A stretch of 23,864 nt of DNA from a virus. The notes beneath the pieces were generated by a model. The model did no database searches, was not told the DNA's origin, and worked only from the letters and a program-made list of their open reading frames with translations. Of the stretch, positions 1 through 18,898 are shown in pieces. The stretch spans positions 1 to 23,864 of the IMG/VR virus record IMGVR_UViG_3300022891_000073, one strand, 5' to 3'. The first letter of the stretch is position 1, and each line of letters starts with the position of its first letter. The translations under genes were made by a program, and so were the position numbers.

Positions 1-321
1 ATGGGCGACGCCACGGCGGTCGAGATCATCACGGCGGCGGAACTGATCACGCCGGATGACTACACGACCGAACTGGGCAAGCGCTGGGCGGCGCACCGCA
101 ACGAGTGGGTGACCGTGACCGAGATCCGGCTGGCGCACACCGGCGGCCAGCTGGCGGGCTACATCGTGGCCGGTGACGACAACCACGTGTTCGGCATGGC
201 GGAGTGCACCGACGGATCCTCCAAGTCGGTGGCGCACTGCATCCTGGACACGGCGTCGGGCAGGGAGCACATGATCGCCAGTGTGATCGCTGTCTGGGCT
301 GACAGCTGGGGCGGTAACTGA
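1..321 (+). CDS. hypothetical phage protein, 106 aa
   Basis: The frame is open from the first base of the window and begins with ATG, but no ribosome binding site can be seen, so the true start may lie upstream. I do not recognise the protein. It is acidic, with no signal peptide or membrane segment. The middle (about residues 50-70, GGQLAGYIVAGDDNHVFG) reads like a beta-hairpin followed by a short acidic stretch. The stop TGA is the first three bases of hairpin A1, so gene end and hairpin form one unit. Coding is supported by strong G/C at third positions and placement in the cistron-hairpin-cistron pattern. Confidence 0.8.
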   Translation: MGDATAVEIITAAELITPDDYTTELGKRWAAHRNEWVTVTEIRLAHTGGQLAGYIVAGDDNHVFGMAECTDGSSKSVAHCILDTASGREHMIASVIAVWADSWGGN

Positions 322-381
322 TCCTGCGGGTGAGGTCGAGGCGCGGCGTAGGCCGTGCCTGGACTCCGGCGCAGGGCCGGA
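319..381 (+). repeat. intergenic hairpin A1
   Basis: Outer stem CCTGCG (323-328) pairs with CGCAGG (370-375), followed by GGCCGGA. The apical part is AGGCGCGGC with GCCGTGCCT, a long variant shared only with A2 and A4. All 63 bp are identical to A2 at 642-704, stop codon included. Confidence 0.85.
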
Positions 382-398
382 TTGAGCAAGGGGGCGTC

Positions 399-644
399 AT
401 GCCGAAGTTCGAGATCCACGCCAACGGGGACCGTCAGGAAACCATCGAGCTGGAGATGCCCAAGATCGGGCTGCTGATCGAGGTGGTCAGCGCGTTCTGG
501 ACGCACGATGTGTTCCGCAACGAGGGTGGCTGCCCGTTCACGGTTGCGGTGGTCAAGCACGACGGCCGAACCGTGGCGTATGGGTGGCTGGAGCCTGCGG
601 GTTGGATGTGGGACGACATCGACGAGGCTTACGACGAGAGCTGA
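399..644 (+). CDS. hypothetical phage protein, 81 aa
   Basis: ATG at 399 is chosen because AAGGGGG (389-395) sits just upstream; an in-frame ATG at 330 would place the start inside hairpin A1. The product is acidic and of unknown function. Its second half (VAVVKHDGRTVAYGWLEP, then WMWDD) has the layout beta strand, turn, beta strand with YG, then a Trp-rich strand. The next two genes share this layout loosely. It ends DES with the TGA entering hairpin A2. Confidence 0.85.
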   Translation: MPKFEIHANGDRQETIELEMPKIGLLIEVVSAFWTHDVFRNEGGCPFTVAVVKHDGRTVAYGWLEPAGWMWDDIDEAYDES

Positions 645-704
645 TCCTGCGGGTGAGGTCGAGGCGCGGCGTAGGCCGTGCCTGGACTCCGGCGCAGGGC
701 CGGA
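642..704 (+). repeat. intergenic hairpin A2
   Basis: Exact 63-bp duplicate of A1. Outer stem CCTGCG (646-651) with CGCAGG (693-698). It begins with the stop codon of the upstream gene and ends 18 bp before the next ATG. Confidence 0.85.
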
Positions 705-722
705 CGTACGGAAGGTGTGAGC

Positions 723-980
723 ATGAGCTACCGCGTCGAGGTGCTGGAGCCCCTCACGGAGGAGCCGCTGGGCTTCCTGATGGCCGAGGACGACGAGAAT
801 CCGAACAACGTCGAGCGGGTCGCCAGCTTCGACACCCTGGAGGATGTCCGGCAGGCAATCGGCGAGTCGATCGCCGCTGGCCGCCCGATGGACTACCTGG
901 TCGAGGACGAGAGCGGCGAGCACATCGGCGTGGCCTACGCCGATGGGGAGGTGTGGCACTACGAACTGCCCGAGGACTGA
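723..980 (+). CDS. very acidic small phage protein, 85 aa
   Basis: Start ATG 723 follows GGAAGGTG (710-717). The 85-residue product has about 23 Asp/Glu against 4 Arg and no Lys, a net charge near -19. No domain is recognised. The C-terminal half (MDYLVEDESGEHIGVAYADGE then VWHYELPED) resembles the beta-turn-beta-Trp layout of its neighbours. Such charge density is seen in some phage DNA-mimic inhibitors, but nothing here proves that role. TGA at 978 opens hairpin A3. Confidence 0.85.
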   Translation: MSYRVEVLEPLTEEPLGFLMAEDDENPNNVERVASFDTLEDVRQAIGESIAAGRPMDYLVEDESGEHIGVAYADGEVWHYELPED

Positions 981-1039
981 TCCTGTGGTTGAGGGTGCGG
1001 GCCGCTACGGCGGCTCGTCGCCTCCGGCACAGGGCCGGA
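978..1039 (+). repeat. intergenic hairpin A3
   Basis: Outer stem CCTGTG (982-987) with CACAGG (1028-1033): one C-to-T change in the left arm matched by G-to-A in the right, relative to A1. Internal loop GTT opposite CGG, GAGG/CCTC stem, apical GCCGC/GCGGC. Confidence 0.85.
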
Positions 1040-1055
1040 TGAGAGCGAGGGCACG

Positions 1056-1310
1056 ATGACCTTCCGAATGATGATCCGTGAGGCTGTCAAGGGTGGCGGC
1101 ATCGAGGAATATCACCCCGAGGTCAGCGCCAAAGAGATCGACTACTTCGTCACGGTGACGGAGAAGTTCTACGGGGCCTGCCCGCAGTTCTTCGCGGTGA
1201 CGATCATCGACGAGGACACCGACGAGCCGGTGCTGTACGGGGCTCGCCAGCAGGGTGACGTGTGGCGCTGGAGCGGGGCGTACTACGCACCACGGCCGAA
1301 AGGCTACTGA
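1056..1310 (+). CDS. hypothetical phage protein, 84 aa
   Basis: ATG 1056 follows CGAGGG (1046-1051). The N-terminus (MTFRMMIREAVKGGG) is basic and probably helical. The C-terminal half reads FFAVTIIDEDTDEPVLYG, a turn, then VWRWSGAYY, the same strand-turn-YG-Trp layout as the genes at 399 and 723. Those three genes may be distant paralogs, though identity is too low to say by eye. No function is assigned. TGA is the start of hairpin A4. Confidence 0.85.
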   Translation: MTFRMMIREAVKGGGIEEYHPEVSAKEIDYFVTVTEKFYGACPQFFAVTIIDEDTDEPVLYGARQQGDVWRWSGAYYAPRPKGY

Positions 1311-1369
1311 TCCTGCGGTTGAGGTCGAGGCGCGGCGATGCCGTGCCTGGACTCCGGCGCAGGGCCGGA
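1308..1369 (+). repeat. intergenic hairpin A4
   Basis: Long-apex variant like A1 and A2, differing by GGTT for GGGT and a small deletion at the apex (GCGATGCC). Outer stem CCTGCG (1312-1317) with CGCAGG (1358-1363). Confidence 0.8.
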
Positions 1370-1385
1370 CGGAAGTGAGGGCATC

Positions 1386-1877
1386 ATGACCAGGATCATC
1401 GACCAGCGGGTCCGGGAGTTCGTCGCCGAGACCGGGCTGGATCTCGTGACGGTCAGCGAGTACGTCGAGGACGTCGTGACCGGCTACATCGGCACGCTGT
1501 TGTGGAGCGAGTCGTGCAACGGCACGGCGCCGTTGCACGTCTGCGACCACCTCAGCAGGCAGGGTGACGAGGCTGCCGACTGCGACACGAGCCTGGATTC
1601 GCTGGGCTACGCCGAGAACGATCTCGCCGGGGAGGCTTACGACTCGATCCGGGAGGACGTCGCGGACTTCGTCTGCGCCAACTGGGCGGACCTGTACGGC
1701 TCCGACATGGACGCCGGGCAGGCCGGTCACGACTTCCTGCTCACCCGCAACCACCACGGTGCGGGTTTCTGGGACCGGGGGCTCGGCGAGCGTGGCGACA
1801 GGCTCACGGCCAACGCTCACCCGTACGGCACAACCGACGCCTACGTGGGAGACGACGAGCTGGTCTACGTGAGCTGA
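1386..1877 (+). CDS. conserved phage protein with GHDF...GAGFWDRG motif, 163 aa
   Basis: ATG 1386 is preceded by GGAAGTGAGGG; an upstream in-frame ATG at 1338 lies within hairpin A4. The C-terminal block GHDFLLTRNHHGAGFWDRG (residues about 114-132) followed by LGERGDRL, AHPYG and YVGDDELVY is the signature of a family I know from many unrelated phages as a protein of unknown function. The N-terminal GYIGTLLWS (33-41) also fits that family, in which an aLWs motif precedes a variable helical middle. No catalytic role is established. It is one of the few genes here recognisable across phage groups. TGA opens hairpin A5. Confidence 0.9.
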   Translation: MTRIIDQRVREFVAETGLDLVTVSEYVEDVVTGYIGTLLWSESCNGTAPLHVCDHLSRQGDEAADCDTSLDSLGYAENDLAGEAYDSIREDVADFVCANWADLYGSDMDAGQAGHDFLLTRNHHGAGFWDRGLGERGDRLTANAHPYGTTDAYVGDDELVYVS

Positions 1878-1937
1878 TCGTCCAGATGAGGGTGAGCGCC
1901 GGTTACGCCCGGCGCTTCGCCTCCGGTGGATGGCCGG
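1875..1937 (+). repeat. intergenic hairpin A5
   Basis: Outer stem CGTCCA (1879-1884) with TGGATG (1927-1932), a sequence unlike other A copies but still complementary (one G-T pair). GAT opposite CGG, GAGG (1888-1891) with CCTC (1920-1923), apical AGCGCCGG/CCGGCGCT. The most divergent A copy, and the most informative for covariation. Confidence 0.85.
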
Positions 1938-1958
1938 CCGATTTCCAGGAGGAATCTC

Positions 1959-2228
1959 ATGATCGCCAACCTGATCGACAAGACTCACGCCATCGGCGGT
2001 ATCCGGGTGGCCGAGCGTCCCCGCCGCGCTGTGCGGCGCGGTGGCCCCGTGGTCATCGTGCCGCTGGCTGACGGTTCCGAGAAGGTCTACCCGGTCGGCC
2101 GTGATGTCGAGGTTACAGGCTGGACGGAGCCGTTCCAAGCGGGTCCGGTCAAGGCGCTTGTCGGTGGTCAGCGCATCGACTACGCCGAGCGTACGGCCAA
2201 CTTCACCGTGAGCCGTAATCCTCGCTGA
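1959..2228 (+). CDS. hypothetical phage protein, 89 aa
   Basis: Start ATG 1959 is fixed by a near-perfect AGGAGGAA (1947-1954). The product is basic in its first third (IRVAERPRRAVRRGG) and then beta-rich (PVVIVPLADGSEKVYPVG). No domain is recognised; a small beta-barrel or nucleic-acid-binding fold is possible but unproven. It is the last gene before promoter P1 and, unlike its neighbours, is not followed by a hairpin. Confidence 0.85.
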   Translation: MIANLIDKTHAIGGIRVAERPRRAVRRGGPVVIVPLADGSEKVYPVGRDVEVTGWTEPFQAGPVKALVGGQRIDYAERTANFTVSRNPR

Positions 2229-2234
2229 GCTGAG

Positions 2235-2277
2235 TGTCACGGCCAACTTGACAGGGTAGGGTGAGGGCCGCTACTGT
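2235..2277 (+). promoter_or_regulatory. promoter P1 with TGTCA-N9-TGACA dyad
   Basis: The -35 box TTGACA (2248-2253) and -10 box TACTGT (2272-2277) are separated by 18 bp. TGTCA (2235-2239) and TGACA (2249-2253) form an inverted repeat with 9 bp between, so the right arm is the -35 box itself. Expected transcript start is near 2284, giving a short leader of about 30 nt without a hairpin. Confidence 0.85.
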
Positions 2278-2313
2278 GGTCCTCAGCAAGGCAACGAGCG
2301 AGAGGGACGGGAC

Positions 2314-2511
2314 ATGGCAATCACACAGGACGTACTGGCGGGCAGCGCCGCATACGACGCAGTAGCCCAGACGGAGAGCGTCGAGGAAAAGCGACACCTG
2401 CTCCGGGCGTTCCGGCCGGGCGTGCTGCACTACCTCGCCGATGCGGTCTACGTGGAATGGGAGGGGCTGCGCGAGGAGACCGTGATCAACAACATCCTGA
2501 CCGAACTCTGA
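2314..2511 (+). CDS. hypothetical helical phage protein, 65 aa
   Basis: First gene of the P1 unit; ATG 2314 follows GAGGGA (2302-2307). The sequence is largely helical (SVEEKRHLLRAFRPGVLHYLADAVYVEWEG) and acidic, with no transmembrane segment. It is not recognised. Being promoter-proximal, it should be the most strongly expressed gene of its unit if the hairpins attenuate transcription. TGA enters hairpin A6. Confidence 0.85.
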   Translation: MAITQDVLAGSAAYDAVAQTESVEEKRHLLRAFRPGVLHYLADAVYVEWEGLREETVINNILTEL

Positions 2512-2569
2512 TCCTGTGGTTGAGGGTGGGCGCCAGCGTGCTGGCGCTACGCCTCCGGCACAGGGCCGG
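2509..2569 (+). repeat. intergenic hairpin A6
   Basis: Outer stem CCTGTG (2513-2518) with CACAGG (2559-2564). Apical GCGCCAGC/GCTGGCGC replaces the GCCGC apex of A3, so the tip is free to change as long as it pairs. Confidence 0.85.
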
Positions 2570-2587
2570 TACGAGCAAGGGAGCGAC

Positions 2588-2965
2588 ATGGACCCCAACG
2601 CCGCGTTGGAGCAGATCAGGGCAGCCCGCCGAGAGATCCAGTCGGTGGCCGAGCAGATCGTCTGGCCCTACCAGGGCGACCGTGAGCGGAACCTGGAGCG
2701 GGTCGCCGAGGAGCTGGCCGAACTCTTCCAGGGCTTGGATGAGTTCCTGACACACGGCGGTTTTCTGCCGAGCGACTGGGAGGGCAAGCGCAAGGCGTTC
2801 ACCCCGGAGCAGGGGGACGTCATCGCCGAGGCGCTGGGCGACGCCTACGCCTACCGCAACGACTCCGGCGAGAGGGACGAGGAGGACCTGGAGGAGTACG
2901 AGCGGGAGGCGTGCCGCCGGTACACGCAGCTGGCGACCGAACTGGGCGTGAAGATCGCCAACTGA
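2588..2965 (+). CDS. phage protein with GGFLPSDW motif, 125 aa
   Basis: ATG 2588 is preceded by AAGGGAG (2577-2583). The protein is acidic and mainly alpha-helical. Residues around 45-62 (LFQGLDEFLTHGGFLPSDW) match a sequence type I associate with small actinobacteriophage proteins of unknown function (aLdewL-x-GGfLP-x-W). The C-terminal part (DEEDLEEYEREACRRYTQL) is a charged helix that could form a coiled coil. No enzymatic motif is visible. Confidence 0.88.
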   Translation: MDPNAALEQIRAARREIQSVAEQIVWPYQGDRERNLERVAEELAELFQGLDEFLTHGGFLPSDWEGKRKAFTPEQGDVIAEALGDAYAYRNDSGERDEEDLEEYEREACRRYTQLATELGVKIAN

Positions 2966-3024
2966 TCCTGTGGTTGAGGGTGCGGGCCGCCACGGCGGCC
3001 CGATGCCTCCGGCACAGGGCCGGA
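2963..3024 (+). repeat. intergenic hairpin A7
   Basis: Outer stem CCTGTG (2967-2972) with CACAGG (3013-3018), loop GTT/CGG, apical GGGCCGC-CACG-GCGGCCC. Confidence 0.85.
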
Positions 3025-3044
3025 AGTGAGCACGAGGAGCGACC

Positions 3045-3404: not shown

Positions 3405-3463
3405 TCCTGCGGGTGAGGGTGGGCGCCGGGTAACCGGCGCCATGCCTCCGGCGCAGGGCCGGA
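3402..3463 (+). repeat. intergenic hairpin A8
   Basis: Outer stem CCTGCG (3406-3411) with CGCAGG (3452-3457), GGT/CGG loop, GAGG/CCTC, apical GGCGCCGG-GTAA-CCGGCGCC, whose tip is a GNRA-type tetraloop. Confidence 0.88.
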
Positions 3464-3481
3464 CAGAATGAGGGAGACATC

Positions 3482-3859: not shown

Positions 3860-3917
3860 TCCTGCGGATGAGGGTGCGGGCCGCTGAAGCGGCCCGATGC
3901 CTCCGGCACAGGGCCGG
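3857..3917 (+). repeat. intergenic hairpin A9
   Basis: Left arm CCTGCG (3861-3866), right arm CACAGG (3907-3912): the one A copy with a C/A mismatch in the outer stem, as if caught between the CCTGCG and CCTGTG types. Apical GGGCCGC-TGAA-GCGGCCC is intact. Confidence 0.8.
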
Positions 3918-3936
3918 TATGTACGAGGGAGTGGCG

Positions 3937-4221: not shown

Positions 4222-4280
4222 TCCTGCGGATGAAGGTGCGGGCCGCTACGGCGGCTCGTCGCCTCCGGCGCAGGGCCGGA
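4219..4280 (+). repeat. intergenic hairpin A10
   Basis: Outer stem CCTGCG (4223-4228) with CGCAGG (4269-4274). The GAGG box is GAAGG here, which weakens the middle stem. Apical GCCGC/GCGGC as in A3. Confidence 0.82.
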
Positions 4281-4298
4281 TGGAACGAGGGAGACACC

Positions 4299-4667: not shown

Positions 4668-4727
4668 CCGTACGGATGAGGGTGGCTGCCAGCACGCTGG
4701 CAGCTCGCCTCCGGCGTACGGGCCGGA
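4665..4727 (+). repeat. intergenic hairpin A11
   Basis: Outer stem CCGTACG (4668-4674) with CGTACGG (4715-4721), a 7-bp arm wholly different from CCTGCG/CGCAGG yet perfectly paired. GAT/CGG loop kept, apical GCTGCCAGC/GCTGGCAGC. Confidence 0.9.
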
Positions 4728-5081: not shown

Positions 5082-5141
5082 CCGTACGGATGAGGGTGGG
5101 CGCCAGCACGCTGGCGTCGCGCCTCCGGCGTACGGGCCGGA
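5079..5141 (+). repeat. intergenic hairpin A12
   Basis: Last A copy. Outer stem CCGTACG (5082-5088) with CGTACGG (5129-5135), apical CGCCAGC/GCTGGCG. It shares its outer stem with A11 but the apex type with A6. Confidence 0.88.
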
Positions 5142-5159: not shown

Positions 5160-5447
5160 ATGCAGCGAGACAACCTGGCTATCGCGGTGTCCTACGAGGG
5201 TGAGCGGGAGGTTGACAGCGGCGGTGTGAGCAAGCTGGCCGAGCTGTACCGCCAGATGCAGTACGGCGCGGACATCCGGATCCTGAGCGTGGCCGCGCTG
5301 GACGAGGGCGGGGTGCTGGTGCCGGTGAAGCACGAGATGCTGCCCTACACCTTCGACGACAACTCGATGGCCTACCCGGTCGTCAAGGTGACCATGCCGG
5401 ACGGCCTGGCCGAGTGGGCGACCTTTTCGCTGGACGGCCGCGCCTAA
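5160..5447 (+). CDS. hypothetical phage protein, 95 aa
   Basis: ATG 5160 follows GAAGGGAAG (5147-5155). The predicted layout is beta-rich (LAIAVSYEGEREV, DIRILSVAALDEGGVLVPVKHEML, YPVVKVTMPDG). No conserved motif is recognised. It is the last gene of the P1 unit and the point where the intergenic hairpins change from family A to family B. Confidence 0.87.
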   Translation: MQRDNLAIAVSYEGEREVDSGGVSKLAELYRQMQYGADIRILSVAALDEGGVLVPVKHEMLPYTFDDNSMAYPVVKVTMPDGLAEWATFSLDGRA

Positions 5448-5505
5448 TCGTGCGCTGATGGTGGCGCCCGGCTTCGGCCGGGCGTTGCCACCGTCGCATG
5501 ACGGA
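5448..5505 (+). repeat. intergenic hairpin B1
   Basis: First family-B copy. Outer stem CGTGCG (5449-5454) with CGCATG (5495-5500, one G-T pair), CTGAT internal loop, GGTGGC (5460-5465) with GCCACC (5487-5492), apical GCCCGGC-TTCG-GCCGGGC with a stable UUCG tip. It ends just before the P2 dyad, so it could also stop transcription of the upstream unit. Confidence 0.88.
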
Positions 5506-5507: not shown

Positions 5508-5552
5508 CACTGTCACGACCAACTTGACAGTGGGGTTGAGATGCACTACGTT
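5508..5552 (+). promoter_or_regulatory. promoter P2 with 8-bp-arm dyad
   Basis: TTGACA (5524-5529), 17 bp, TACGTT (5547-5552). CACTGTCA (5508-5515) and TGACAGTG (5525-5532) are a perfect 8-bp inverted repeat with 9 bp between, centred upstream of and covering the -35 box. The whole promoter and leader are a near-copy of P3. Confidence 0.9.
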
Positions 5553-6002: not shown

Positions 6003-6059
6003 CGTACGGATGATGGTGCGGCCCGGGTGACCGGGCCGATGCCACCGCTGTACGGCGGA
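6000..6059 (+). repeat. intergenic hairpin B2
   Basis: Outer stem CGTAC (6003-6007) with GTACG (6050-6054). Apical CGGCCCGG-GTGA-CCGGGCCG closed by a GNRA-type tetraloop. The GGATGAT in the internal loop resembles family A, so this copy looks transitional. Confidence 0.85.
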
Positions 6060-6374: not shown

Positions 6375-6432
6375 TCCGTGCGCTGATGGTGCGGCCCGGT
6401 CATCCGGGCCGCCGCCACCGCCGCACGGCGGA
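6372..6432 (+). repeat. intergenic hairpin B3
   Basis: Outer stem CCGTGCG (6376-6382) with CGCACGG (6422-6428), 7 perfect pairs. CTGAT internal loop, GGTG/CACC, apical CGGCCCGG-TCAT-CCGGGCCG. Confidence 0.9.
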
Positions 6433-6930: not shown

Positions 6931-7119
6931 ATGCCTGAAGACCACTACGACCTGCTGCACCGCACGCTGGGCGGCGGGCTGAACGATCGCCAGCACGGCG
7001 CGGTGTACGGGCTGGCCTACCAGTTCGGCCACAGCGCCGGGGAGGACGAGGTCAGGGTCTACTACGAGGACCTGGCGGACATGGCCCGAGCGGTCATCGA
7101 CGCCAACGACGAGCGCTGA
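6931..7119 (+). CDS. hypothetical phage protein, 62 aa
   Basis: ATG 6931 follows a strong GAAGGAGAGGG (6918-6928). The 30-bp gap before it has no hairpin, so it is probably expressed closely with the gene before. Acidic; a helix-turn-helix-like run of two helices (DDYDLLHRTL-type start, then DLADMARAVIDAND). The final codons GAC GAG CGC TGA are the left arm and internal loop of hairpin B4. Confidence 0.85.
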   Translation: MPEDHYDLLHRTLGGGLNDRQHGAVYGLAYQFGHSAGEDEVRVYYEDLADMARAVIDANDER

Positions 7120-7166
7120 TGGTGCGGCCCGGCATGTCCGGGCCGACGCCACCGCCGCTCGGCGGA
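7110..7166 (+). repeat. intergenic hairpin B4, overlapping the upstream stop
   Basis: Outer stem CGAGCG (7110-7115) with CGCTCG (7156-7161). The left arm is coding sequence, and the stop TGA (7117-7119) is the internal loop. Compared with B3 the T-A pair has become A-T, a paired change. Confidence 0.9.
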
Positions 7167-7763: not shown

Positions 7764-7821
7764 TCGAGCGCTGATGGTGGCGCCCGGCTCCGGCCGGGCG
7801 TTGCCACCGCCGCTCGGCGGA
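7761..7821 (+). repeat. intergenic hairpin B5
   Basis: Outer stem CGAGCG (7765-7770) with CGCTCG (7811-7816). The stop comes before the stem here, yet CTGAT is still present in the internal loop, so that sequence is part of the element and not only a stop codon. Confidence 0.9.
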
Positions 7822-7841: not shown

Positions 7842-8135
7842 ATGGCAGGCATGAAGCAGCTGATGACGGCGATCGAGGAGATGGCGGAGACGCTGGCCAA
7901 CAGCGACACCGCGCTGGCGCACCTGACGTGCCGCGAGGTGGGCTCAATCGTGGACGTGCTGGTGTTGTCGGGCTTGGAGCAGCACGTCGGCGGTGTCCTC
8001 ATGGGGCACGCCTACGGCGACAGCGGCACGGGCGACACGCACCACGATCTGTACCAGTCAGACGAGCGGGGCAACGAGGACGAGCTGGTGGACGGTTACA
8101 TCGAGGCCGCGAAGCAGCGACTCGGCGTGCGCTGA
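7842..8135 (+). CDS. hypothetical phage protein, 97 aa
   Basis: ATG 7842 is preferred over the in-frame GTG at 7836 because AAGGAG (7831-7836) overlaps that GTG. First half is helical (MKQLMTAIEEMAETLANSDTALAHL); next TCREVGSIVDVLVLSGLEQHVGGVLMGHAYGD, then a histidine/aspartate run (GDTHHDLY) and a C-terminal helix. I do not recognise a family. The last codons (GGC GTG CGC TGA) are the left arm and loop of hairpin B6. Confidence 0.88.
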   Translation: MAGMKQLMTAIEEMAETLANSDTALAHLTCREVGSIVDVLVLSGLEQHVGGVLMGHAYGDSGTGDTHHDLYQSDERGNEDELVDGYIEAAKQRLGVR

Positions 8136-8182
8136 TGGTGCGGCCCGGCATGTCCGGGCCGACGCCACCGCCGCACGGCGGA
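8126..8182 (+). repeat. intergenic hairpin B6, overlapping the upstream stop
   Basis: Outer stem CGTGCG (8126-8131) with CGCACG (8172-8177). Body almost identical to B4 (apical CGGCCCGG-CATG-T-CCGGGCCG type) while the outer stem differs by a paired change. Confidence 0.9.
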
Positions 8183-8207: not shown

Positions 8208-8570
8208 ATGAAGCAGGAACTCAAAGGTCAGGCCCGCCTGGACCCGAACGCCGCCGAGTACGAAGAGGCCATCGGGGGCGGGCTCAGCGCCGAGAGCACC
8301 GTGGCGCTGGGGTGGCCCACGGAGGACATCAACCCCAGCGACACCCCGGCCGAGGCAATCGAGCGGTTGTGCAACTACAAGGCCGGGATCGCAGCGCGGG
8401 CGCTGGCCGAGTACGCCCGGCTCACCGGCGGGCAGGGCGAGTCCATCCGAACCAACGCGGGTGACTTCGTCACGGACCTGATGCACCTGCTCGACGCCCT
8501 GGAGGTCGAGTTCTACGAGATCGCCGACTACGGCTACGACAACCACGCGGCAGAGCAGACCGAGCAGTGA
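8208..8570 (+). CDS. hypothetical helical phage protein, 120 aa
   Basis: ATG 8208 follows AGGAAGTGAG. Acidic. The C-terminal part TNAGDFVTDLMHLLDALEVEFYEIADYGYDNHAAEQ resembles short Streptomyces-phage proteins of the DLltDLrHLaDALgldF-x-x-A-x-x-H type, whose role is unknown. N-terminal half includes CNYKAGIAARALAEYARL, a probable helix. TGA at 8568 falls in hairpin B7. Confidence 0.88.
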   Translation: MKQELKGQARLDPNAAEYEEAIGGGLSAESTVALGWPTEDINPSDTPAEAIERLCNYKAGIAARALAEYARLTGGQGESIRTNAGDFVTDLMHLLDALEVEFYEIADYGYDNHAAEQTEQ

Positions 8571-8617
8571 TGGTGGCGGCCGGGCATCCCGGCCGCACGC
8601 CACCGCCGCTCGGCGGG
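8561..8617 (+). repeat. intergenic hairpin B7, overlapping the upstream stop
   Basis: Outer stem CGAGC (8561-8565) with GCTCG (8608-8612), one pair shorter than B4. GGTGGC/GCCACC-type middle with apical GCGGCCGGG-CAT-CCCGGCCGC. Confidence 0.85.
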
Positions 8618-9027: not shown

Positions 9028-9085
9028 CGTGCACCGATGGTGCGGCCCGGCTCTGGCCGGGCCGACGCCACCGCTGCATGGCGGA
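9025..9085 (+). repeat. intergenic hairpin B8
   Basis: Outer stem CGTGCA (9028-9033) with TGCATG (9075-9080): the sixth pair is A-T in place of G-C, plus one G-T pair. CCGAT in the internal loop replaces CTGAT. Confidence 0.87.
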
Positions 9086-9893: not shown

Positions 9894-9952
9894 CGTGCGC
9901 TGACGGGACCGCCCAGCGAGGGGGCTGGGCGGTGCCACCGTCGCACGACGGA
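9891..9952 (+). repeat. intergenic hairpin B9
   Basis: Outer stem CGTGCG (9894-9899) with CGCACG (9942-9947). Unusually strong apex ACCGCCCAGC (9908-9917) with GCTGGGCGGT (9924-9933). It lies directly before the P3 dyad, so it may also act as a terminator. Confidence 0.87.
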
Positions 9953-9953: not shown

Positions 9954-9999
9954 CTAGTGTCACGCTCTACTTGACACTAGGGTTGAGGTGCACTACGGT
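9954..9999 (+). promoter_or_regulatory. promoter P3 with 9-bp-arm dyad
   Basis: TTGACA (9971-9976), 17 bp, TACGGT (9994-9999). CTAGTGTCA (9954-9962) and TGACACTAG (9972-9980) form a perfect 9-bp inverted repeat around 9 bp. Relative to P2 the flanking bases differ on both sides in a complementary way. The leader (GTCTCAGCAGGGAAAAC) is shared with P2. Confidence 0.9.
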
Positions 10000-10210: not shown

Positions 10211-10268
10211 CCGAGCACCGATGGTGCGGCCCGGCACGTCCGGGCCGACGCCACCGCCGCTCGGCGGA
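10208..10268 (+). repeat. intergenic hairpin B10
   Basis: Outer stem CCGAGC (10211-10216) with GCTCGG (10259-10264). CCGAT internal loop as in B8; apex as in B4 and B6. Confidence 0.88.
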
Positions 10269-10289: not shown

Positions 10290-10742
10290 ATGAGCGACAT
10301 CGACACCCGCCCCGGCCTGTGGCTGTTGACCAGCCAGCGCCGCCCCCACATCGTCATCGACACTAGGACCGGCCAGCCGGTCAGCAAGGGCGACGAGATC
10401 ACGTCGTTCCGTGGCGAGAAGAGCACACTGCAGTCCGTCTCCCGAGGCCCGCAGTACAACGGCACCTCGAAAGTCACCAACGCCAAGGGTTGGGAGTATT
10501 ACGACTCGGTGTACGAGCTGCTCGTCCTGCCCCTGATCGAGGTCGGCGAGCTGTACCGTCTCGACATCTACAACCGGGAAGACATGATCCGGAAGTACCA
10601 CTTCGTCCAGATCACCGACATCGCCGAGGACCGTACGGTCACGGCGTACGAGGTGGACGACGACGGCGGGCCGACTTCCAACGAGATCACCTTCCGCTGG
10701 GACGACGTCTACATCGCGGACCTGTACGCAGACGTGTGCTGA
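10290..10742 (+). CDS. phage protein with KGDEITSFRGE motif, 150 aa
   Basis: ATG 10290 follows ACGGAG. The N-terminal half (about residues 25-80: TGQPVSKGDEITSFRGEKSTL, GTSKVTNAKGWEYYDSVYELLVL) matches a pattern familiar from actinophages, G-pV-kGd-vtsfRGe ... g-s-kV ... yy-sVf-L, of unknown function. The C-terminal half (IEVGELYRLDIYNREDMIRKYHFVQITDIAEDRTVTAYEVDD) is beta-rich and may be a second small domain. Ends DVC, encoded by the left arm of hairpin B11. Confidence 0.9.
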   Translation: MSDIDTRPGLWLLTSQRRPHIVIDTRTGQPVSKGDEITSFRGEKSTLQSVSRGPQYNGTSKVTNAKGWEYYDSVYELLVLPLIEVGELYRLDIYNREDMIRKYHFVQITDIAEDRTVTAYEVDDDGGPTSNEITFRWDDVYIADLYADVC

Positions 10743-10799
10743 TGGTGGCGGCCGGGCTTCCCGGCCGCACGCCACCGCCACACGGCGGAACCTACGAGC
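10733..10799 (+). repeat. intergenic hairpin B11, overlapping the upstream stop
   Basis: Outer stem CGTGTG (10733-10738) with CACACG (10789-10794): the C-G pair of the standard CGTGCG type is replaced by T-A, both sides changed. Apical GCGGCCGGG-CTT-CCCGGCCGC. Confidence 0.9.
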
Positions 10800-11042: not shown

Positions 11043-11084
11043 CGTCAAGTACGGCTTGACGCAGTCAGTGTCAACTGCTACCTT
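11043..11084 (+). promoter_or_regulatory. promoter P4 with two overlapping dyads
   Basis: TTGACG (11056-11061), 17 bp, TACCTT (11079-11084). CGTCA (11043-11047) pairs with TGACG (11057-11061) across 9 bp, a covarying version of TGTCA/TGACA. A second inverted repeat, TTGAC (11056-11060) with GTCAA (11070-11074), also has a 9-bp spacer, giving three half-sites in register. Confidence 0.88.
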
Positions 11085-11091
11085 GAGTTCA

Positions 11092-11153
11092 CCGCAAGGG
11101 AGATGGTGGCCGCCGGTTACGACCGGCGGCGCGCCACCGCCGTGCGGCGGAGG
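11092..11153 (+). repeat. leader hairpin B12 at the predicted 5' end of the P4 transcript
   Basis: CCGCA (11092-11096) with TGCGG (11143-11147); GGTGGC/GCCACC middle; apical GCCGCCGG-TTACGA-CCGGCGGC. The only B copy placed after a promoter instead of after a gene: transcription from P4 should begin near 11091, so the RNA would start with the hairpin. Confidence 0.85.
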
Positions 11154-11182
11154 GAAAACCCCTTAAACGAAGGAGATCCACC

Positions 11183-11392: not shown

Positions 11393-11450
11393 TCGTGCGC
11401 TGATGGTGGCGCCCGGCTTCGGCCGGGCGTTGCCACCGCCGCACGGCGGA
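11390..11450 (+). repeat. intergenic hairpin B13
   Basis: Outer stem CGTGCG (11394-11399) with CGCACG (11440-11445). Apex GCCCGGC-TTCG-GCCGGGC identical to B1. Confidence 0.9.
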
Positions 11451-11472: not shown

Positions 11473-11901
11473 ATGGATTACCAGCACGGAAGCTTGCAGC
11501 AGTGGCGAGAGCAGGCCGAGCGTGCGCTGGCTGAGGCCGAGGCCGAGGTAGCCAGGGCGGCCAAGGGGCAGGCCATGTACGCGACCTGTCAGGCTTTCCC
11601 GGACGCCTTCACCGTGGTCTTCGCCGACCACCGGGGGCGCGAGATGGACGAACCGGTGGTCATCTCGCAGGTCCTCACCCGCAGCCGCCACGACCTGCTC
11701 GCCGCGACTCGGCACGACAGCGGCCCCGAAGACCAGGCGGAGTGGGAGAAGCGCCAGCAGGAGCGCCTCCCGCTGGACGAGATCGCCGAGATGATCACCC
11801 GGGCCTACGACATCGACCCGGAGCTGTTCCGGGACGCCAGGCGCCCCGAAGATCGCTTTCAGGCCTACGCGGAGCGCCGGTACGAGTTCGACGTGCACTG
11901 A
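11473..11901 (+). CDS. hypothetical phage protein, 142 aa
   Basis: ATG 11473 lies 8 bp after AAGGAGGA (11457-11464); a nearer ATG at 11466 is in another frame. Long N-terminal alanine/glutamate helix (LQQWREQAERALAEAEAEVARAA) with coiled-coil character, then TVVFADHRGREMDEPVVISQVL (beta), then helices with acidic residues (EWEKRQQERLPLDEIAEMITRAYDI). No recognised family. Last codons GAC GTG CAC TGA are in hairpin B14. Confidence 0.88.
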   Translation: MDYQHGSLQQWREQAERALAEAEAEVARAAKGQAMYATCQAFPDAFTVVFADHRGREMDEPVVISQVLTRSRHDLLAATRHDSGPEDQAEWEKRQQERLPLDEIAEMITRAYDIDPELFRDARRPEDRFQAYAERRYEFDVH

Positions 11902-11948
11902 CGGTGGCGCCCGGCCCTGGCCGGGCGTTGCCACCGCTGCACGGCGGA
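11892..11948 (+). repeat. intergenic hairpin B14, overlapping the upstream stop
   Basis: Outer stem CGTGCA (11892-11897) with TGCACG (11938-11943): last pair A-T instead of G-C, perfectly complementary. Internal loop CTGAC, apical GCCCGGC-CCTG-GCCGGGC. Confidence 0.9.
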
Positions 11949-12368: not shown

Positions 12369-12952
12369 ACAAGGTCGCCATCACCGACCCGTCCGTGACC
12401 GTGATCTACGGGGTCACGGAGGACGACAACCCGCTCGACGCAGCGATGCGCATGATCGACGAGGCCAAGGTTCGCCCGGCGCACGACCGGCCCGGCTACT
12501 TCCACAACCAAGACCCCGGCGAGCACATCAACGTGCACACCCACCACGCGGACTCGCTGCCCGAGCAGTGGATGGAGATGGCCCCGCTCGGCGTGCAGAA
12601 GGCCGGCGACGTGGGCGGCGATGCGCAGGTCAGCGAGGCGTTCAGTCGGCGCTGGGTGATGCGCCGGCGCGTCGGCGACTGGGCGGTCTTCACGGCCACC
12701 TTCTACGTCGCGCTGGTCCCCCCGAGCGCCGGGGCTGACCAGCCTCGCGTGGTCGAGGTCATGGAGGACTACGAGATCGCCGAAGACCTGCACGACCTGG
12801 ACGGCTCGCAGACCTTCGCCGAGACGCGGTACCGCGGCCTGGTGGGCGAGCCGACCGAGGAGCACGCCCGGCTGCTCGCAGAGCAGATGAACGCAGGGCG
12901 CGTCCAGTGGACGGGCTCCGAGTTCTACGGGCACTTCATCCCCCTGCGCTGA
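12365..12952 (+). CDS. hypothetical phage protein, 195 aa
   Basis: ATGA overlap with the gene before sets the start at 12365. Among the larger unknowns here. Features are a His-rich stretch (HINVHTHHADSLPEQW, about residues 57-72), a basic centre (SRRWVMRRRVGDWAVFTATFYVALVPP) and a C-terminal helix (EEHARLLAEQMNAGRVQW). The His cluster could bind metal, but no catalytic signature of a known family is apparent. Ends FIPLR with the last codons in hairpin B15. Confidence 0.9.
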   Translation: MNKVAITDPSVTVIYGVTEDDNPLDAAMRMIDEAKVRPAHDRPGYFHNQDPGEHINVHTHHADSLPEQWMEMAPLGVQKAGDVGGDAQVSEAFSRRWVMRRRVGDWAVFTATFYVALVPPSAGADQPRVVEVMEDYEIAEDLHDLDGSQTFAETRYRGLVGEPTEEHARLLAEQMNAGRVQWTGSEFYGHFIPLR

Positions 12953-13000
12953 TGGTGCGGCCCGGCTCCGGCCGGGCCGTCGCCACCGTCGCATGACGGA
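12945..13000 (+). repeat. intergenic hairpin B15, overlapping the upstream stop
   Basis: Outer stem reduced to TGCG (12945-12948) with CGCA (12990-12993). CTGAT loop carries the stop; apical CGGCCCGGC-TCC-GGCCGGGCCG. Confidence 0.82.
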
Positions 13001-13681: not shown

Positions 13682-13742
13682 CGTCTTCTGTGCCGGCCGG
13701 GCTCCCCGGCCGGCGCGGTGGTCGCCAGACCAGGACCACCGC
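13682..13742 (+). repeat. divergent double hairpin
   Basis: GCCGGCCGGG (13692-13701) pairs with CCCGGCCGGC (13705-13714), then GCGGTGGTC (13715-13723) with GACCACCGC (13734-13742). It occupies the place of a B element but is two successive stem-loops, not one bipartite stem. Confidence 0.82.
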
Positions 13743-13762
13743 GAGCAGAGGAGCAACCCCAC

Positions 13763-14071: not shown

Positions 14072-14082
14072 CAGGAGGAATC

Positions 14083-14364: not shown

Positions 14365-14424
14365 CGATCGTGCCGATGATGGTCCGTCCGGCTTCGGCCG
14401 GGCGTGGCCACCGGGGCATGACCG
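14362..14424 (+). repeat. intergenic hairpin B16
   Basis: Outer stem CGTGC (14369-14373) with GCATG (14416-14420). The middle stem is degraded (GGTC with GGCCACC) while the TTCG-tipped GCCGG apex remains. It lies directly before P5. Confidence 0.78.
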
Positions 14425-14427
14425 GGA

Positions 14428-14469
14428 TGTCATAAGCAACTTGACACGTAGTACGTAGAGCGCTACGCT
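14428..14469 (+). promoter_or_regulatory. promoter P5 with TGTCA-N9-TGACA dyad
   Basis: TTGACA (14441-14446), 17 bp, TACGCT (14464-14469). TGTCA (14428-14432) and TGACA (14442-14446) are the same inverted repeat as in P1 and P7. A further palindrome ACGTA-G-TACGT lies at 14446-14456, in the spacer. Confidence 0.88.
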
Positions 14470-14490
14470 ACTCGAAACCAAGGAGGAATC

Positions 14491-15308: not shown

Positions 15309-15325
15309 CCACGAAAGGATCAGCC

Positions 15326-15665: not shown

Positions 15666-15901
15666 TGGCGGGCTCGTACTGCCAGTACTGCGACCGTCGC
15701 TGCTTCGTCTCGCGTCAGGTCATCGTGGCCGGCCAGCTGGTCTGGGCCGGCCACATGGCCACGTGCGAGCGCGGCAAGGAGCACGACCGGAACGCGATCG
15801 GCATGGACTCCACCACCGCGCACAACCCGGTCTGGGACGAATGCCCCTGCGCGCTCTGCAAGCCTGCCGCGGTCGGCTCGGGGGGTCCCGATGCCCAGTA
15901 A
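15665..15901 (+). CDS. cysteine-rich, probable zinc-binding phage protein, 78 aa
   Basis: ATG 15665 is in a TGATG overlap. Cysteines at about 6, 9, 13 and 34 (SYCQYCDRRCF ... HMATCERG) and a second group near 60-65 (CPCALC) suggest one or two metal sites. Reads like small Streptomyces-phage zinc-finger proteins that bind nucleic acid or protein. Its 3' end overlaps the next start by 11 bp. Confidence 0.82.
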   Translation: MAGSYCQYCDRRCFVSRQVIVAGQLVWAGHMATCERGKEHDRNAIGMDSTTAHNPVWDECPCALCKPAAVGSGGPDAQ

Positions 15902-16103
15902 CCGCCTCGCGGGGCACACGCTCCCGCTGGAGGGGCGCGTGCAGCTCGCCGGTCGGCTGATCGGGGACGGCAACGGGGAAGGGCGGGCGGTCTGCTCGTG
16001 CACCGACTACTCGCCCCTGCTGCCGTCCACGCGCGCCCGCCAGCAGTGGCACCGCGAGCACAAGGACGAGATCCGCTCCCGACGCAGCCCGGAGGAGTCG
16101 TGA
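15891..16103 (+). CDS. hypothetical basic phage protein, 70 aa
   Basis: ATG 15891 lies inside the preceding gene's end. Product has CSCTDYSPLLPSTRARQQWHREHKDEIR, a CSC followed by a basic, tryptophan-containing helix; I have seen comparable C-x-C-(8-12)-S-x-x-A/RxxWHxxHK strings in actinobacterial phage and host small proteins. Perhaps a zinc or nucleic-acid binder. TGATG to the next gene. Confidence 0.78.
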   Translation: MPSNRLAGHTLPLEGRVQLAGRLIGDGNGEGRAVCSCTDYSPLLPSTRARQQWHREHKDEIRSRRSPEES

Positions 16104-16300
16104 TGCACAGGACTCAGTTCGAGGTGCGCAACACGGACGGCACCCTGCTGGACGTGGGCGACTTCATCAACTGCCCGGACCTCGCGGATACCCGCATCGA
16201 CCGGTGCCTGAAGCACTACCCGGAGGCCACCGTTATCCGCTCCGACGACCCGGACTGGTATCAGGGGAAACCGGCGCCCGCGGGCACGGAGGGAGAGTGA
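16103..16300 (+). CDS. hypothetical phage protein, 65 aa
   Basis: ATG 16103 overlaps the previous stop; GGAGGAG about 6-12 bp upstream is a strong binding site. Starts TQFEVRNTDGTLLDVGDF (beta), then a segment with two cysteines (NCPDLADTRIDRCLKHYP), then VIRSDDPDWYQG. Small alpha/beta fold, no family recognised. Confidence 0.82.
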   Translation: MHRTQFEVRNTDGTLLDVGDFINCPDLADTRIDRCLKHYPEATVIRSDDPDWYQGKPAPAGTEGE

Positions 16301-16302
16301 CC

Positions 16303-16602
16303 ATGGGCGTCTCCGAGAGCGGGTACACCCACCCGCTGGTCCACGTCAATCGCAGCTCCCCGGACCCCTCGATCCCGCCGTGTTACGACTGCGGCGCCCA
16401 GGTCGACGACTACTACACGGAACCGAACCGGTGCGGCCCCTGCCACGCCAAGCATGTCAAGTGTGGGGGTGCACCCCTGGAGCCGTCCGGCGTGCCCTGC
16501 GATTACCACGACTTCCCGCACGGGGAAGCGTGTCCGGGCGCCCCGGTGTGCTCGCTGGGCCGGCCCGGTAGCCCGCCGAATCCGGGAGCGGATCATGCCT
16601 GA
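16303..16602 (+). CDS. zinc-ribbon phage protein, 99 aa
   Basis: ATG 16303 follows GGAGGGAGAG. A CYDC motif at residues 27-30 and a CGPC motif at 44-47 make a standard four-cysteine zinc ribbon, with more Cys and His downstream (HVKCGG, CDYHDFPHGEACPG) that might form a second site. Such ribbons often bind DNA, RNA or a partner protein. The function in this phage is unknown. The end overlaps the next start by 8 bp. Confidence 0.85.
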   Translation: MGVSESGYTHPLVHVNRSSPDPSIPPCYDCGAQVDDYYTEPNRCGPCHAKHVKCGGAPLEPSGVPCDYHDFPHGEACPGAPVCSLGRPGSPPNPGADHA

Positions 16603-16906
16603 GGACCCGATGCACATCGACAACGTACGGGTGCGGCAAGCCGCGGACAGCGCAGAGCGGGACATGTTCCGGGACCTCGCCCGAGAGATCGACGGCCCGT
16701 CGCCGCCCGGTATCGGTGCCCTGCTGAGGCGAGCGCTCAGCCAGCCCGCGGCGAGTACCGCGCCCAATCCGCCGACGCGGTGCTGCGATCGGTACGGCAT
16801 CGGAGACCACGACAGCGCAGACCACGCCGATCCCGATCTGATGCGCATGCAAAGTTGGGACGCCCACGAGAACGCCGAGCGGGTCGAGGACGATACCGGT
16901 TCGTAG
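16595..16906 (+). CDS. hypothetical acidic phage protein, 103 aa
   Basis: ATG 16595 lies inside the end of the zinc-ribbon gene, with CGGGAGCGG upstream. N-terminal helix (VRVRQAADSAERDMFRDLAREID), a Pro/Gly linker, then helix GALLRRALSQPAAS and a His/Asp-rich tail (DRYGIGDHDSADHADPDLMRMQSWDAHENAERV). Possibly a metal-binding tail. Not recognised. Confidence 0.82.
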   Translation: MPEDPMHIDNVRVRQAADSAERDMFRDLAREIDGPSPPGIGALLRRALSQPAASTAPNPPTRCCDRYGIGDHDSADHADPDLMRMQSWDAHENAERVEDDTGS

Positions 16907-16922
16907 CACTGAGGGCTTCTGT

Positions 16923-16947
16923 CGCCGCCGGCCCTGGGCCGGCGGCG
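16923..16947 (+). repeat. strong GC hairpin after the cysteine cluster
   Basis: CGCCGCCGGCCC (16923-16934) pairs with GGGCCGGCGGCG (16936-16947), effectively a 10-11 bp stem with a tight loop. It is the first hairpin since 14424 and closes the overlapping block. Confidence 0.8.
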
Positions 16948-16979
16948 TGCAGTGGACGTCAGTTCAAGAGGGGAGATCG

Positions 16980-17318
16980 ATGGAAACCACACACAAGAAG
17001 CAGGTCCGGGTCGCGTTTCTCGACGAGGAGACACAGGGCATCGGGCCGAACGGCCGTGGCACTCGGGTCGCGCCCGGTGCCTACATCATCGCTGACCTGG
17101 ACGGCATGGAGCCGGGGATGCTGATGCTGCAGGTCGCCGGCAGCATCCTGCTGCTGGCGATCGTGCAGGAGAGCGACGCCAACCACATCCAGGAGGTCCT
17201 GGATGGTCCGCACGCCCGTGATTGGGCCGCCTACTACCGCGCCCACCCGAACACCGTGGCCAGCTGGGGCGAGCAGAACGGCCGGCGGCCGGGTGCGCCC
17301 TATAACCAGGAGGACTGA
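16980..17318 (+). CDS. hypothetical phage protein, 112 aa
   Basis: ATG 16980 follows AGGGGAGA. N-terminal part is basic and beta-rich (KKQVRVAFLDEETQG, GTRVAPGAYIIADLDG), followed by a hydrophobic stretch MLMLQVAGSILLLAIV (about residues 45-60), not long or clean enough for a sure membrane helix, then an Asp/His helix. The hydrophobic run could be a buried beta-alpha element. No family recognised. Confidence 0.86.
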   Translation: METTHKKQVRVAFLDEETQGIGPNGRGTRVAPGAYIIADLDGMEPGMLMLQVAGSILLLAIVQESDANHIQEVLDGPHARDWAAYYRAHPNTVASWGEQNGRRPGAPYNQED

Positions 17319-17320
17319 TC

Positions 17321-17923
17321 ATGGACTACAGCGTTGACATCGTCCCGATCGAGACGATCGTCGGGCGCGTCGCCCGGGACCAGATCTTCCCGCTGGGCCG
17401 CTACACCCACATCGGTGCCAACCTGCCCGAGATCACCGAGCAGTACGCCGACGACTTCCTGACCTCCATCGCCCAGGAGCAGGCGCCGCCGCTGACCATC
17501 ACCCTGGACTCCAGCGGGGTGGTCGTCTCCGGCCAGCACCACCTGAGCATCCTGGTCGGCGCCCTGCTGCACCCGGACGAGCGCCACAACTGGGTGGAGC
17601 TGCCGAAGTTCCTCGACACGATGGTGGTCACCGACATCGGCGAGCCCAGCGGACCGACTGTCTGGTCCTCCTATGAGCCCGCCGGCCACGCCGTGACCTG
17701 GCTGCCGGTGAACTACATCCCCCGCACGGCGGCCTGGACCAGTTGGTGCGAGACGCTCGGGAACTCGCAGCTGATCACGGCCCGGGAGGCCCGCAAGGTC
17801 CTGTCCGAGGCGAACCGGATCGCCCGGATGTTCATGGACTACCGGGTGGTCCTGATCCGCGCTGGCCGGAACGTCAGCGGCTCGCGGCTCGCTGAGCTTA
17901 TGGCGGCCCGCGGCCAGCACTGA
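17321..17923 (+). CDS. hypothetical protein with a DGQQR-like motif (ParB/DUF262-like?), 200 aa
   Basis: ATG 17321 is two bases after the previous stop, with AGGAGG (17307-17312) ahead of it. Residues about 37-90 read LPEITEQYADDFLTSI, PPLTITLDSSGVVVSGQHHLSILVGALL. The order helix, 'PLTI' strand, 'VVVSGQHHLSIL' resembles the ParB/Srx/DUF262 layout (PilVl ... vDGQQRLtAL), with GQHHL in place of GQQRL. The C-terminal YRVVLIRAGRNVSGSRLAEL could match the later helix of DUF262. Known DUF262 members act in restriction and modification; that role here is inference only. Confidence 0.88.
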   Translation: MDYSVDIVPIETIVGRVARDQIFPLGRYTHIGANLPEITEQYADDFLTSIAQEQAPPLTITLDSSGVVVSGQHHLSILVGALLHPDERHNWVELPKFLDTMVVTDIGEPSGPTVWSSYEPAGHAVTWLPVNYIPRTAAWTSWCETLGNSQLITAREARKVLSEANRIARMFMDYRVVLIRAGRNVSGSRLAELMAARGQH

Positions 17924-17934
17924 TCGCAGGCGGC

Positions 17935-17985
17935 GCCAGGATGCACGATGATGGAGCGTACGCATCTACCGACGTCCATCCTGGC
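17935..17985 (+). repeat. long-loop inverted repeat
   Basis: GCCAGGATG (17935-17943) and CATCCTGGC (17977-17985) are perfect 9-bp arms with a 33-nt loop. Neither an A nor a B element; sits 25 bp before the DUF1353 gene. No -35/-10 pair was found within it. Confidence 0.75.
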
Positions 17986-18010
17986 ACCGCACCCGCACTG
18001 AGGAGATCGA

Positions 18011-18493
18011 ATGCCGTTCACCAACAGCCTGCAGGTCGTCGAGCACGACATCCGGTCGTGGAAGCTGCTCAACGACCTGCACTATCAAGGCGACACCGAC
18101 CACTTCACCGTGCCGGCCGGCTATGTCACCGACTTCGCCAGCGTGCCCGACTCGCTCGTGTGGCTGCTCAACAAGACCGGCCCTTACACCCGGGCCGCGG
18201 TCGTGCACGACTGGCTGATCACCGACGAGATCCCCGCCAAGCGGGTTACCTCGCGCGACACCGACGGCCTGTTCCGCCGGATCATGCGCGAGGAGGGCGT
18301 CCCGTTCCCGAAGCGCTGGGTGATGTGGGCCGCCGTACGCATGGGCGCCCTGTTCTCCCCCGGCCGGGCATACGGCCGGCAGTTCTACCGCGACGCGCCG
18401 CTGATCACCCTGATTGCCGTGCTGTCGCTCCCCATCGTGCCGGCGACCCTGCTGGTGCTGATCACCCGGACGCTGTTGCGCCCCCTGCGGTAG
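18011..18493 (+). CDS. DUF1353 family protein with C-terminal membrane helix, 160 aa
   Basis: ATG 18011 follows GAGGAGAT. The family signature is clear: PAGYVTDFASVP (residues 35-46), then GPYTRAAVVHDWLI (57-70), DTDGLFRRIMREEGV and a following WVMWAAVRMG helix, as in DUF1353 proteins common in phages and prophages, whose biochemical role is not established. After residue about 130 there is a hydrophobic stretch LITLIAVLSLPIVPATLLVLIT, a probable membrane helix followed by a basic end (RTLLRPLR). That places the domain at the inner membrane face or links it to a membrane process. Placement after a hairpin and before a short gene suggests co-transcription with the P5 unit. Confidence 0.93.
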   Translation: MPFTNSLQVVEHDIRSWKLLNDLHYQGDTDHFTVPAGYVTDFASVPDSLVWLLNKTGPYTRAAVVHDWLITDEIPAKRVTSRDTDGLFRRIMREEGVPFPKRWVMWAAVRMGALFSPGRAYGRQFYRDAPLITLIAVLSLPIVPATLLVLITRTLLRPLR

Positions 18494-18505
18494 AGAGGGA
18501 TGGCC

Positions 18506-18841
18506 ATGCTGGACCCGAGCGAAGCCTGGGCGCTGGACGTCGAGGACGGCTCGCCGCCGACCATCGAGCACCCCGAGATCTTCACGCAGGGAATGACCTG
18601 CCTTGGGTGCCCTGAGACATACGAAGGCATGCTGACCAGCGGCCTGCTGTTCTTCTTCCGCTACCGGCGAGGCCTGGCCTTCCTGGGCGTCGCGCCGACC
18701 GAGGACGGCGCGCTGATGGGCACCGAGTCGCAGGGGACCGGCGCATCGATGGCGGTCGGGGATGACCTGCAGGGGGTATTCAGCAACGACCAGCAGCGCA
18801 ACGACACGTTCGCCGCGCTGCTGGACCGGATCTACCACTGA
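18506..18841 (+). CDS. hypothetical phage protein, 111 aa
   Basis: ATG 18506 is preferred over ATG 18500 because AGAGGGA (18494-18500) overlaps the latter. Begins MLDPSEAWALDVEDG. Middle contains CLGCPETYEGMLTSGLLFFFRYRRGLAFLG, with a CxxC and a hydrophobic basic segment; end is helical (QQRNDTFAALLDRIYH). Might be a small metal-binding alpha/beta protein. Not recognised. Confidence 0.85.
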   Translation: MLDPSEAWALDVEDGSPPTIEHPEIFTQGMTCLGCPETYEGMLTSGLLFFFRYRRGLAFLGVAPTEDGALMGTESQGTGASMAVGDDLQGVFSNDQQRNDTFAALLDRIYH

Positions 18842-18898
18842 CGTGCGCTGATGGTCGCAGCCGGGCCTGCCGGCTGCGTGCCACCGTCGCATGGCGGA
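18839..18898 (+). repeat. intergenic hairpin B17
   Basis: Outer stem CGTGCG (18842-18847) with CGCATG (18888-18893, one G-T pair). Apical CGCAGCCGG-GCCTG-CCGGCTGCG. A lone B copy 4.4 kb downstream of B16. Confidence 0.88.

Follow-up and report, generated by a model that had tools for sequence, protein, structure and literature searches.

The window analysed here is the whole 23,864-bp IMG/VR contig IMGVR_UViG_3300022891_000073, belonging to an uncultured actinobacterial phage. Its + strand genes leave 37 gaps that are 60 nucleotides (nt) or longer, mostly 75–81 nt, and 29 of them carry an RNA element of 55–60 nt, assigned to family A or B, with one shared pseudoknot fold and a sequence varying between the copies. 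An earlier reading, made from the DNA letters without database searches, had described about 29 elements, one per gap, which agrees with this count. The strand order is arm a, a joint of 4–5 nt (mostly CUGA), hairpin P2, and then the contiguous strands b, a′, and b′. Helices P1 (a:a′) and P3 (b:b′) cross, forming the pseudoknot. Structurally, the three helices are well supported, and they were shown in two distant phages. The elements may act as RNA punctuation at cistron ends, most readily as an exonuclease barrier or a processing boundary; judging from sequence, we give this function a probability of about 0.4.

Strand a′ is exactly the loop of the 3′ hairpin (CCGG[CGCAGGG]CCGG in family A and CCGC[CGCACG]GCGG in family B, loop in square brackets). 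It fills the 6–7 nt loop of P3 completely, and the P3 stem of 4–5 bp closes the element. P2 is a GC-rich hairpin on UGGUG...GCCA with U-A, C-G, or G-U as the closing pair. Among 50 family B elements aligned with MAFFT, 38 had U-A and 8 had C-G as the closing pair, and 48 had a U-G wobble as the fourth pair. The sequence-only reading had proposed a nested bipartite hairpin, of which the outer stem was confirmed but which is incomplete: a second hairpin, also covarying, has the outer 3′ arm as its loop. What had been taken for a fixed internal loop is partly strand b, pairing with the downstream b′. The supposed middle stem GGTG:CACC had zero double changes in that register, the true stem being UGGUG...GCCA. 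By predicted energy, the nested combinations P1+P2 and P2+P3 were each several kcal/mol better than P2 alone. Since P1 and P3 have no nucleotides in common, their simultaneous formation fits better than a switch between them.

A structural descriptor composed of arm a, a hairpin, and then a hairpin with a loop complementary to a gave 29 hits on the + strand of the window vs. 1.5 in dinucleotide shuffles. Pairing was evaluated in a set of 65 parsed elements, including 37 from the distant phage contig 2930248008_000005, by permuting strands within each genome and family (3000 permutations), the permuted strands being given the same optimisation. P1 was fully paired in 47 of the 65 elements (permuted mean 24.9, maximum 33) and P3 in 61 (permuted mean 35.4, maximum 44), with 43 different strand pairs in P1 and 18 in P3. 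In the MAFFT alignment, five of six P1 pairs were changed on both sides, and 94.3% of cells paired. The pair counter found 81.7% paired cells vs. 75.1% after shuffling and 26–57% after sliding, as well as 78 double-change cells vs. 36 in the control. Covariation of P1 and P2 is visible in unsupervised alignment. MAFFT aligns P3 inconsistently because b and a′ differ in length, and the support for P3 comes from the permutation test. Phylogeny was controlled by permutation, sliding, and orthologous comparison.

Near-identical relatives of the window (about 94–99%) are L009, L011, L012, and the 35.9-kb contig 3300022911_000012. Their orthologous copies had changes at 14 of 3494 paired vs. 33 of 736 unpaired sites; when shared changes were counted once, about seven of nine independent paired-site differences kept or restored the pair. 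In the gap after 14364, the elements of the window and of 3300022911_000012 are very different, with matching flanks and the same promoter, and the pseudoknot is present in both. G-U pairs outnumbered A-C mismatches in P1 and P3 (43 vs. 17), and the orientation of the elements is always that of the genes; the evidence therefore supports a selected structure that acts as RNA more than as DNA. The earlier proposal that covariation here indicates a selected structure, most simply in RNA, is borne out by the excess over permutation and pair-counter controls, by the G-U bias, and by the pairing kept in relatives, and all the double-sided arm changes it listed are present.

A covariance model and a search of related phages had also been suggested with that reading. 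A model built on family B only (P1+P2) recovered family A at E-values of 1e-7 to 3e-4, plus a variant at 11091. Families A and B are one fold, because the model built on B finds A; the division into two families stands for sequence groups and not for separate folds. The same fold was found in the distant contig 2930248008_000005 (G001, 95 kb), which has at least 37 elements of the family B fold at 44–65 kb and, at 60–84 kb, about 15 elements of family C. Five proteins are common to this contig and the window at 25–46% identity, plus DUF932; in both, a family C element comes after the DUF932 gene, although the two DUF932 proteins have only 48% identity. The nearest cultured phage to 2930248008_000005 by terminase is Streptomyces phage Samy, in which the elements are absent from the stretches read. 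In 2930248008_000005 (878–1777 and 76–84 kb), a tyrosine integrase was recognised with Pfam, and a regulator of GntR type and a protein weakly resembling FtsK were recognised by sequence; together they suggest a temperate or plasmid-like actinophage. Contig 3300036846_000911 (L024), otherwise unrelated, has four stop-proximal elements (gaps after 6559, 7236, 8309, and 8870) with UGGUG...UGCCA and a following UGUCC/GGACA hairpin; one copy is also able to form a single long nested hairpin. This is possibly a third lineage; the match is weak and is not counted as proven.

Arm a begins 0–3 nt past the stop codon in 49 of 65 elements, and in another 10 the joint supplies the stop codon with its UGA. 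The elements are anchored to the stop codon, not to the start. From the end of the element to the next start there are 17–19 nt in most gaps and 65–84 nt in gaps with a promoter in between; the elements do not include the Shine-Dalgarno sequence, which is unmasked. A promoter-like motif, CTTGACR-N17/18-TANNNT, occurs in six copies vs. 0.01 expected, all intergenic and on the + strand, which divide the window. In five of six putative transcription units, the first gene has no element in its own leader. The order stop codon, element, promoter was observed at 5447, 9893, and 14364, and a single element (B12) is located 3′ of a promoter, near the expected transcript start. Because three elements precede promoters and only one follows, the element belongs with the end of the upstream gene. 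No U-tract was present after the elements: T in the next 12 nt had a mean of 1.0 and was at most 3, without TTTT. The elements and promoter-like motifs of the window are the following.

A1, 322–381, + strand: family A, P1 TCCTGCG:CGCAGGG, P3 CCGG:CCGG
A2, 645–704, + strand: family A, sequence identical to A1
A3, 981–1039, + strand: family A, P1 TCCTGTG:CACAGGG
A4, 1311–1369, + strand: family A
A5, 1878–1937, + strand: family A, P1 TCGTCCA:TGGATGG
A6, 2512–2569, + strand: family A, left edge of a gene-plus-element unit missing from 3300022911_000012
A7, 2966–3024, + strand: family A, right edge of the A6–A7 unit missing from 3300022911_000012
A8, 3405–3463, + strand: family A
A9, 3860–3918, + strand: family A, P1 with one A-C mismatch, G-C there in two relatives
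A10, 4222–4280, + strand: family A
A11, 4668–4727, + strand: family A, P1 CCGTACG:CGTACGG
A12, 5082–5141, + strand: family A, P1 CCGTACG:CGTACGG
B1, 5449–5504, + strand: family B, flanked by a stop codon (5′) and a promoter (3′)
B2, 6003–6058, + strand: family B
B3, 6377–6431, + strand: family B
B4, 7110–7165, + strand: family B, stop is the joint UGA; L009 has an extra gene-plus-element unit here
B5, 7765–7820, + strand: family B
B6, 8126–8181, + strand: family B, stop is the joint UGA
B7, 8561–8616, + strand: family B, stop is the joint UGA
B8, 9028–9084, + strand: family B
B9, 9894–9951, + strand: family B, flanked by a stop codon (5′) and a promoter (3′)
B10, 10212–10267, + strand: family B
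B11, 10733–10788, + strand: family B, P1 CGTGTG:CACACG, stop is the joint UGA
B12, 11091–11155, + strand: family B variant, directly 3′ of promoter 11055–11084 and close to where the transcript 5′ end is expected, with a weaker, shifted P1
B13, 11394–11449, + strand: family B, left edge of a unit missing from 3300022911_000012
B14, 11892–11947, + strand: family B, right edge of the B13–B14 unit, stop is the joint UGA
B15, 12943–12999, + strand: family B, stop is the joint UGA
B16, 14368–14425, + strand: family B, between stop and promoter; other sequence and same pseudoknot at the orthologous site of a relative
B17, 18842–18897, + strand: family B
Family C, first, 23005–23065, + strand: after the DUF932 gene, CCTG:CAGG inside the loop of TCGCC/GGCGA
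Family C, second, 23425–23485, + strand: assigned by sequence
Promoter-like motif, 2247–2277, + strand: motif match
Promoter-like motif, 5523–5552, + strand: 3′ of B1
Promoter-like motif, 9970–9999, + strand: 3′ of B9
Promoter-like motif, 11055–11084, + strand: 5′ of B12
Promoter-like motif, 14440–14469, + strand: 3′ of B16
Promoter-like motif, 21052–21082, + strand: 3′ of an ordinary terminator-like hairpin (about 21000–21030)

The two family C elements occupy the gaps after 23004 and 23421, and the six remaining gaps (after 2228, 13681, 16906, 17923, 20404, and 20996) hold promoters or other hairpins. Three of these (13682–13762, 16907–16979, and 17924–18010) contain strong hairpins without a clean parse as the pseudoknot element, possibly degenerate or family C-like.

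In the proposed function, phage mRNA would make the pseudoknot directly after the stop codon or overlapping it, P1 pairing the post-stop strand with the P3 loop. When no ribosome is at the stop, the pseudoknot would fold into a barrier at the cistron end, which would protect the cistron from exonucleases or set a processing boundary. Many small genes of one early transcript could then keep separate stable messages, as repetitive extragenic palindromes and bacterial interspersed mosaic elements (REP/BIME) would allow. A barrier is the simplest reading because it fits the stop anchoring, the copies 5′ of promoters, the one copy near a transcript start, the absence of a U-tract, and the unmasked ribosome-binding site; the expected transcript 5′ end, near which B12 lies, is a place where a barrier could sit. 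There are points on the other side. Copies within one genome are kin, which makes the significance from permutation somewhat too high; comparison of orthologues and the second phage serve as safeguards here. In addition, in the four cultured actinophages whose gaps were read, simple hairpins near stop codons are common, and these could serve the same purpose with no pseudoknot.

The main rival, to which we assign a minor chance, is that the elements are transcription terminators or attenuators without a U-tract, partial stops after which promoters restart transcription. Work of Ingham in 1995 reportedly described terminators of this kind in the early region of phage phiC31. This phiC31 work (Ingham 1995), cited in PMC8355165, is a precedent for the rival. 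The elements resemble such terminators as stable GC-rich intercistronic structures of an actinophage early region, and the order stop, element, promoter at the three sites named above also speaks for termination. However, they are pseudoknots with two covarying extra helices, which termination does not need, and most copies are not placed before a promoter. In runs of up to about ten successive genes, there are elements but no promoter, and most of these genes would be shut off if termination were strong. A promoter precedes one of the elements. The U-tract of a canonical intrinsic terminator (hairpin plus U-tract) is absent after every element; at about 21015, the window has a terminator-like hairpin whose tail is T-rich.

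An extension of the barrier reading seems to us rather improbable as a whole: the elements would represent an undescribed phage RNA class, a minimal pseudoknot, fused to almost all stops of a gene block, acting as a general mechanical exonuclease barrier (the equivalent in bacteria of viral exonuclease-resistant RNAs) and marking exchangeable gene cassettes. Dozens of independent versions of one RNA fold per genome amount to a natural series of mutations, by which the structure is defined ahead of experiment. If the elements do control mRNA ends or decay, they would make clear how blocks of tiny, obscure genes are expressed in large phages, would tie that control to the swapping of such genes between phages, and might provide a portable cistron-insulating part.

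Binding sites for a phage or host RNA-binding protein controlling the whole early block are unlikely. Two near-invariant features that pairing leaves unexplained, the U-G wobble as fourth P2 pair and the nGA of the joint, would suit such a protein, but no cognate protein was found; DUF932 is common to both phages but widespread in phages without the element, and the few other genes in common are mostly of obscure function. We expect even less of a translational insulator or sensor, in which the terminating ribosome would melt P1 and refolding would separate the translation of neighbours. The exact stop anchoring would place arm a in the footprint of the terminating ribosome, but in 10 of 65 elements the stop lies 10 nt deeper into the element and the geometry would shift; moreover, on the short transcript that contains them, the three elements preceding promoters have no cistron behind them, and the Shine-Dalgarno sequence is not masked.

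Gene gain and loss among the near-identical relatives also involves the elements. Genes 2588–2965 and 11473–11901 are missing from 3300022911_000012, each gone with one element, and L009 has an extra gene plus element (L009 3971–4261) at the 7110 site, between two identical element copies. Of four large indels, three correspond exactly to a gene-plus-element unit, and all six of their breakpoints are inside elements; the breakpoints of the fourth, near 16590, are not in elements. Conserved element copies may supply the homology through which single genes come and go. These units would also be expected if the elements were primarily DNA-level recombination sites exchanging gene cassettes, like integron attC or T4-type mobile cassettes, but this is very unlikely: homologous exchange between repeats suffices as an explanation, the G-U excess and the fixed orientation point to RNA, no columns like the attC core sites GTTRRRY / RYYYAAC are conserved in the 50-element alignment, and no dedicated recombinase was identified. 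Put-like antitermination, raised in the sequence-only reading, is unlikely with about one copy per gene and three copies just upstream of promoters; put of HK022 is an antitermination RNA that works on RNA polymerase from the leader.

Among known systems, REP/BIME are intercistronic elements of enterobacteria, proposed to protect upstream mRNA. The likeness consists in many copies of stop-proximal, structured, intercistronic elements. The difference is a covarying pseudoknot of divergent sequence, about one per gene in one block, in a phage and not in the host. REP elements are also marked by a conserved palindrome sequence and a link to RAYT transposases; the consensus of the 50-element alignment holds no short palindrome common to the copies, and no search aimed at RAYT was made. 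A T4-type mobile regulatory cassette consists of a promoter plus a stem-loop. Such cassettes are intergenic, structured, and tied to small-gene shuffling (Arbiol 2010, as cited in PMC4177764). The elements are similarly structured, intergenic, and tied to small-gene shuffling, but they fold as a pseudoknot, and a promoter is lacking from most copies. The start-associated and extended start-associated sequences (SAS/ESAS) of cluster K mycobacteriophages had been named as the nearest analog. Both sets are numerous one-way repeats among non-structural actinophage genes. SAS is a 13 bp asymmetric sequence located 3–7 bp from start codons, and for ESAS the changes in the inverted repeats reportedly give no support for RNA pairing (PMC3203893). 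The analogy fails in both respects, since the elements are fixed to stops, end 17–19 nt before most starts, and have changes that support pairing. Cluster O phages have 17 bp dyad repeats, one of which flanks a gene gain in Corndog (PMC4351075), and cluster EG phages have short inverted repeats (PMC7302621). These are also repeated intergenic inverted repeats of actinophages, but they are invariant short palindromes without variable covarying arms or stop anchoring. The joint CUGAUG only resembles the hammerhead core (CUGAUGA + GAAA); no GAAA strand is present in the consensus, and there was no Rfam match.

The fold matches no catalogued RNA family: with Rfam 15, the window gave zero covariance-model matches at the gathering score. 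A search of L090 with Rfam at E-values up to 1 gave three chance-level matches far below gathering. BLASTN of element blocks against cultured phages and plasmids gave no element match. A degenerate pattern scan of bacterial genomes yielded single scattered matches only, among the matches listed, and a loose pattern scan of viral contigs yielded noise. The covariance model found nothing at E 1e-6 in 396 genomes of one bacterial phylum, a search that had no positive control. Descriptor clusters in the unrelated contigs L064, L070, L077, and L079 dissolved on inspection. In the stretches read of Samy, Lollipop1437, Mollymur, Racecar, NTR1, and Lilbeanie, an array of the fold was absent.

The genes of the window are small, tightly packed, and located on the + strand throughout. 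BLASTN of the window against cultured phages gave zero nucleotide matches. One set of BLASTN hits traced to a single coding gene and was rejected as an element match. Functions were recognisable for few genes, the clearest being the DUF932 protein (21733–23004) and an HTH_23-like protein. Relatives of the 1386–1877 protein, with the conserved core NHHGAGFWDRG, occur in 70-odd viral contigs as well as in phages of Gordonia and Microbacterium.

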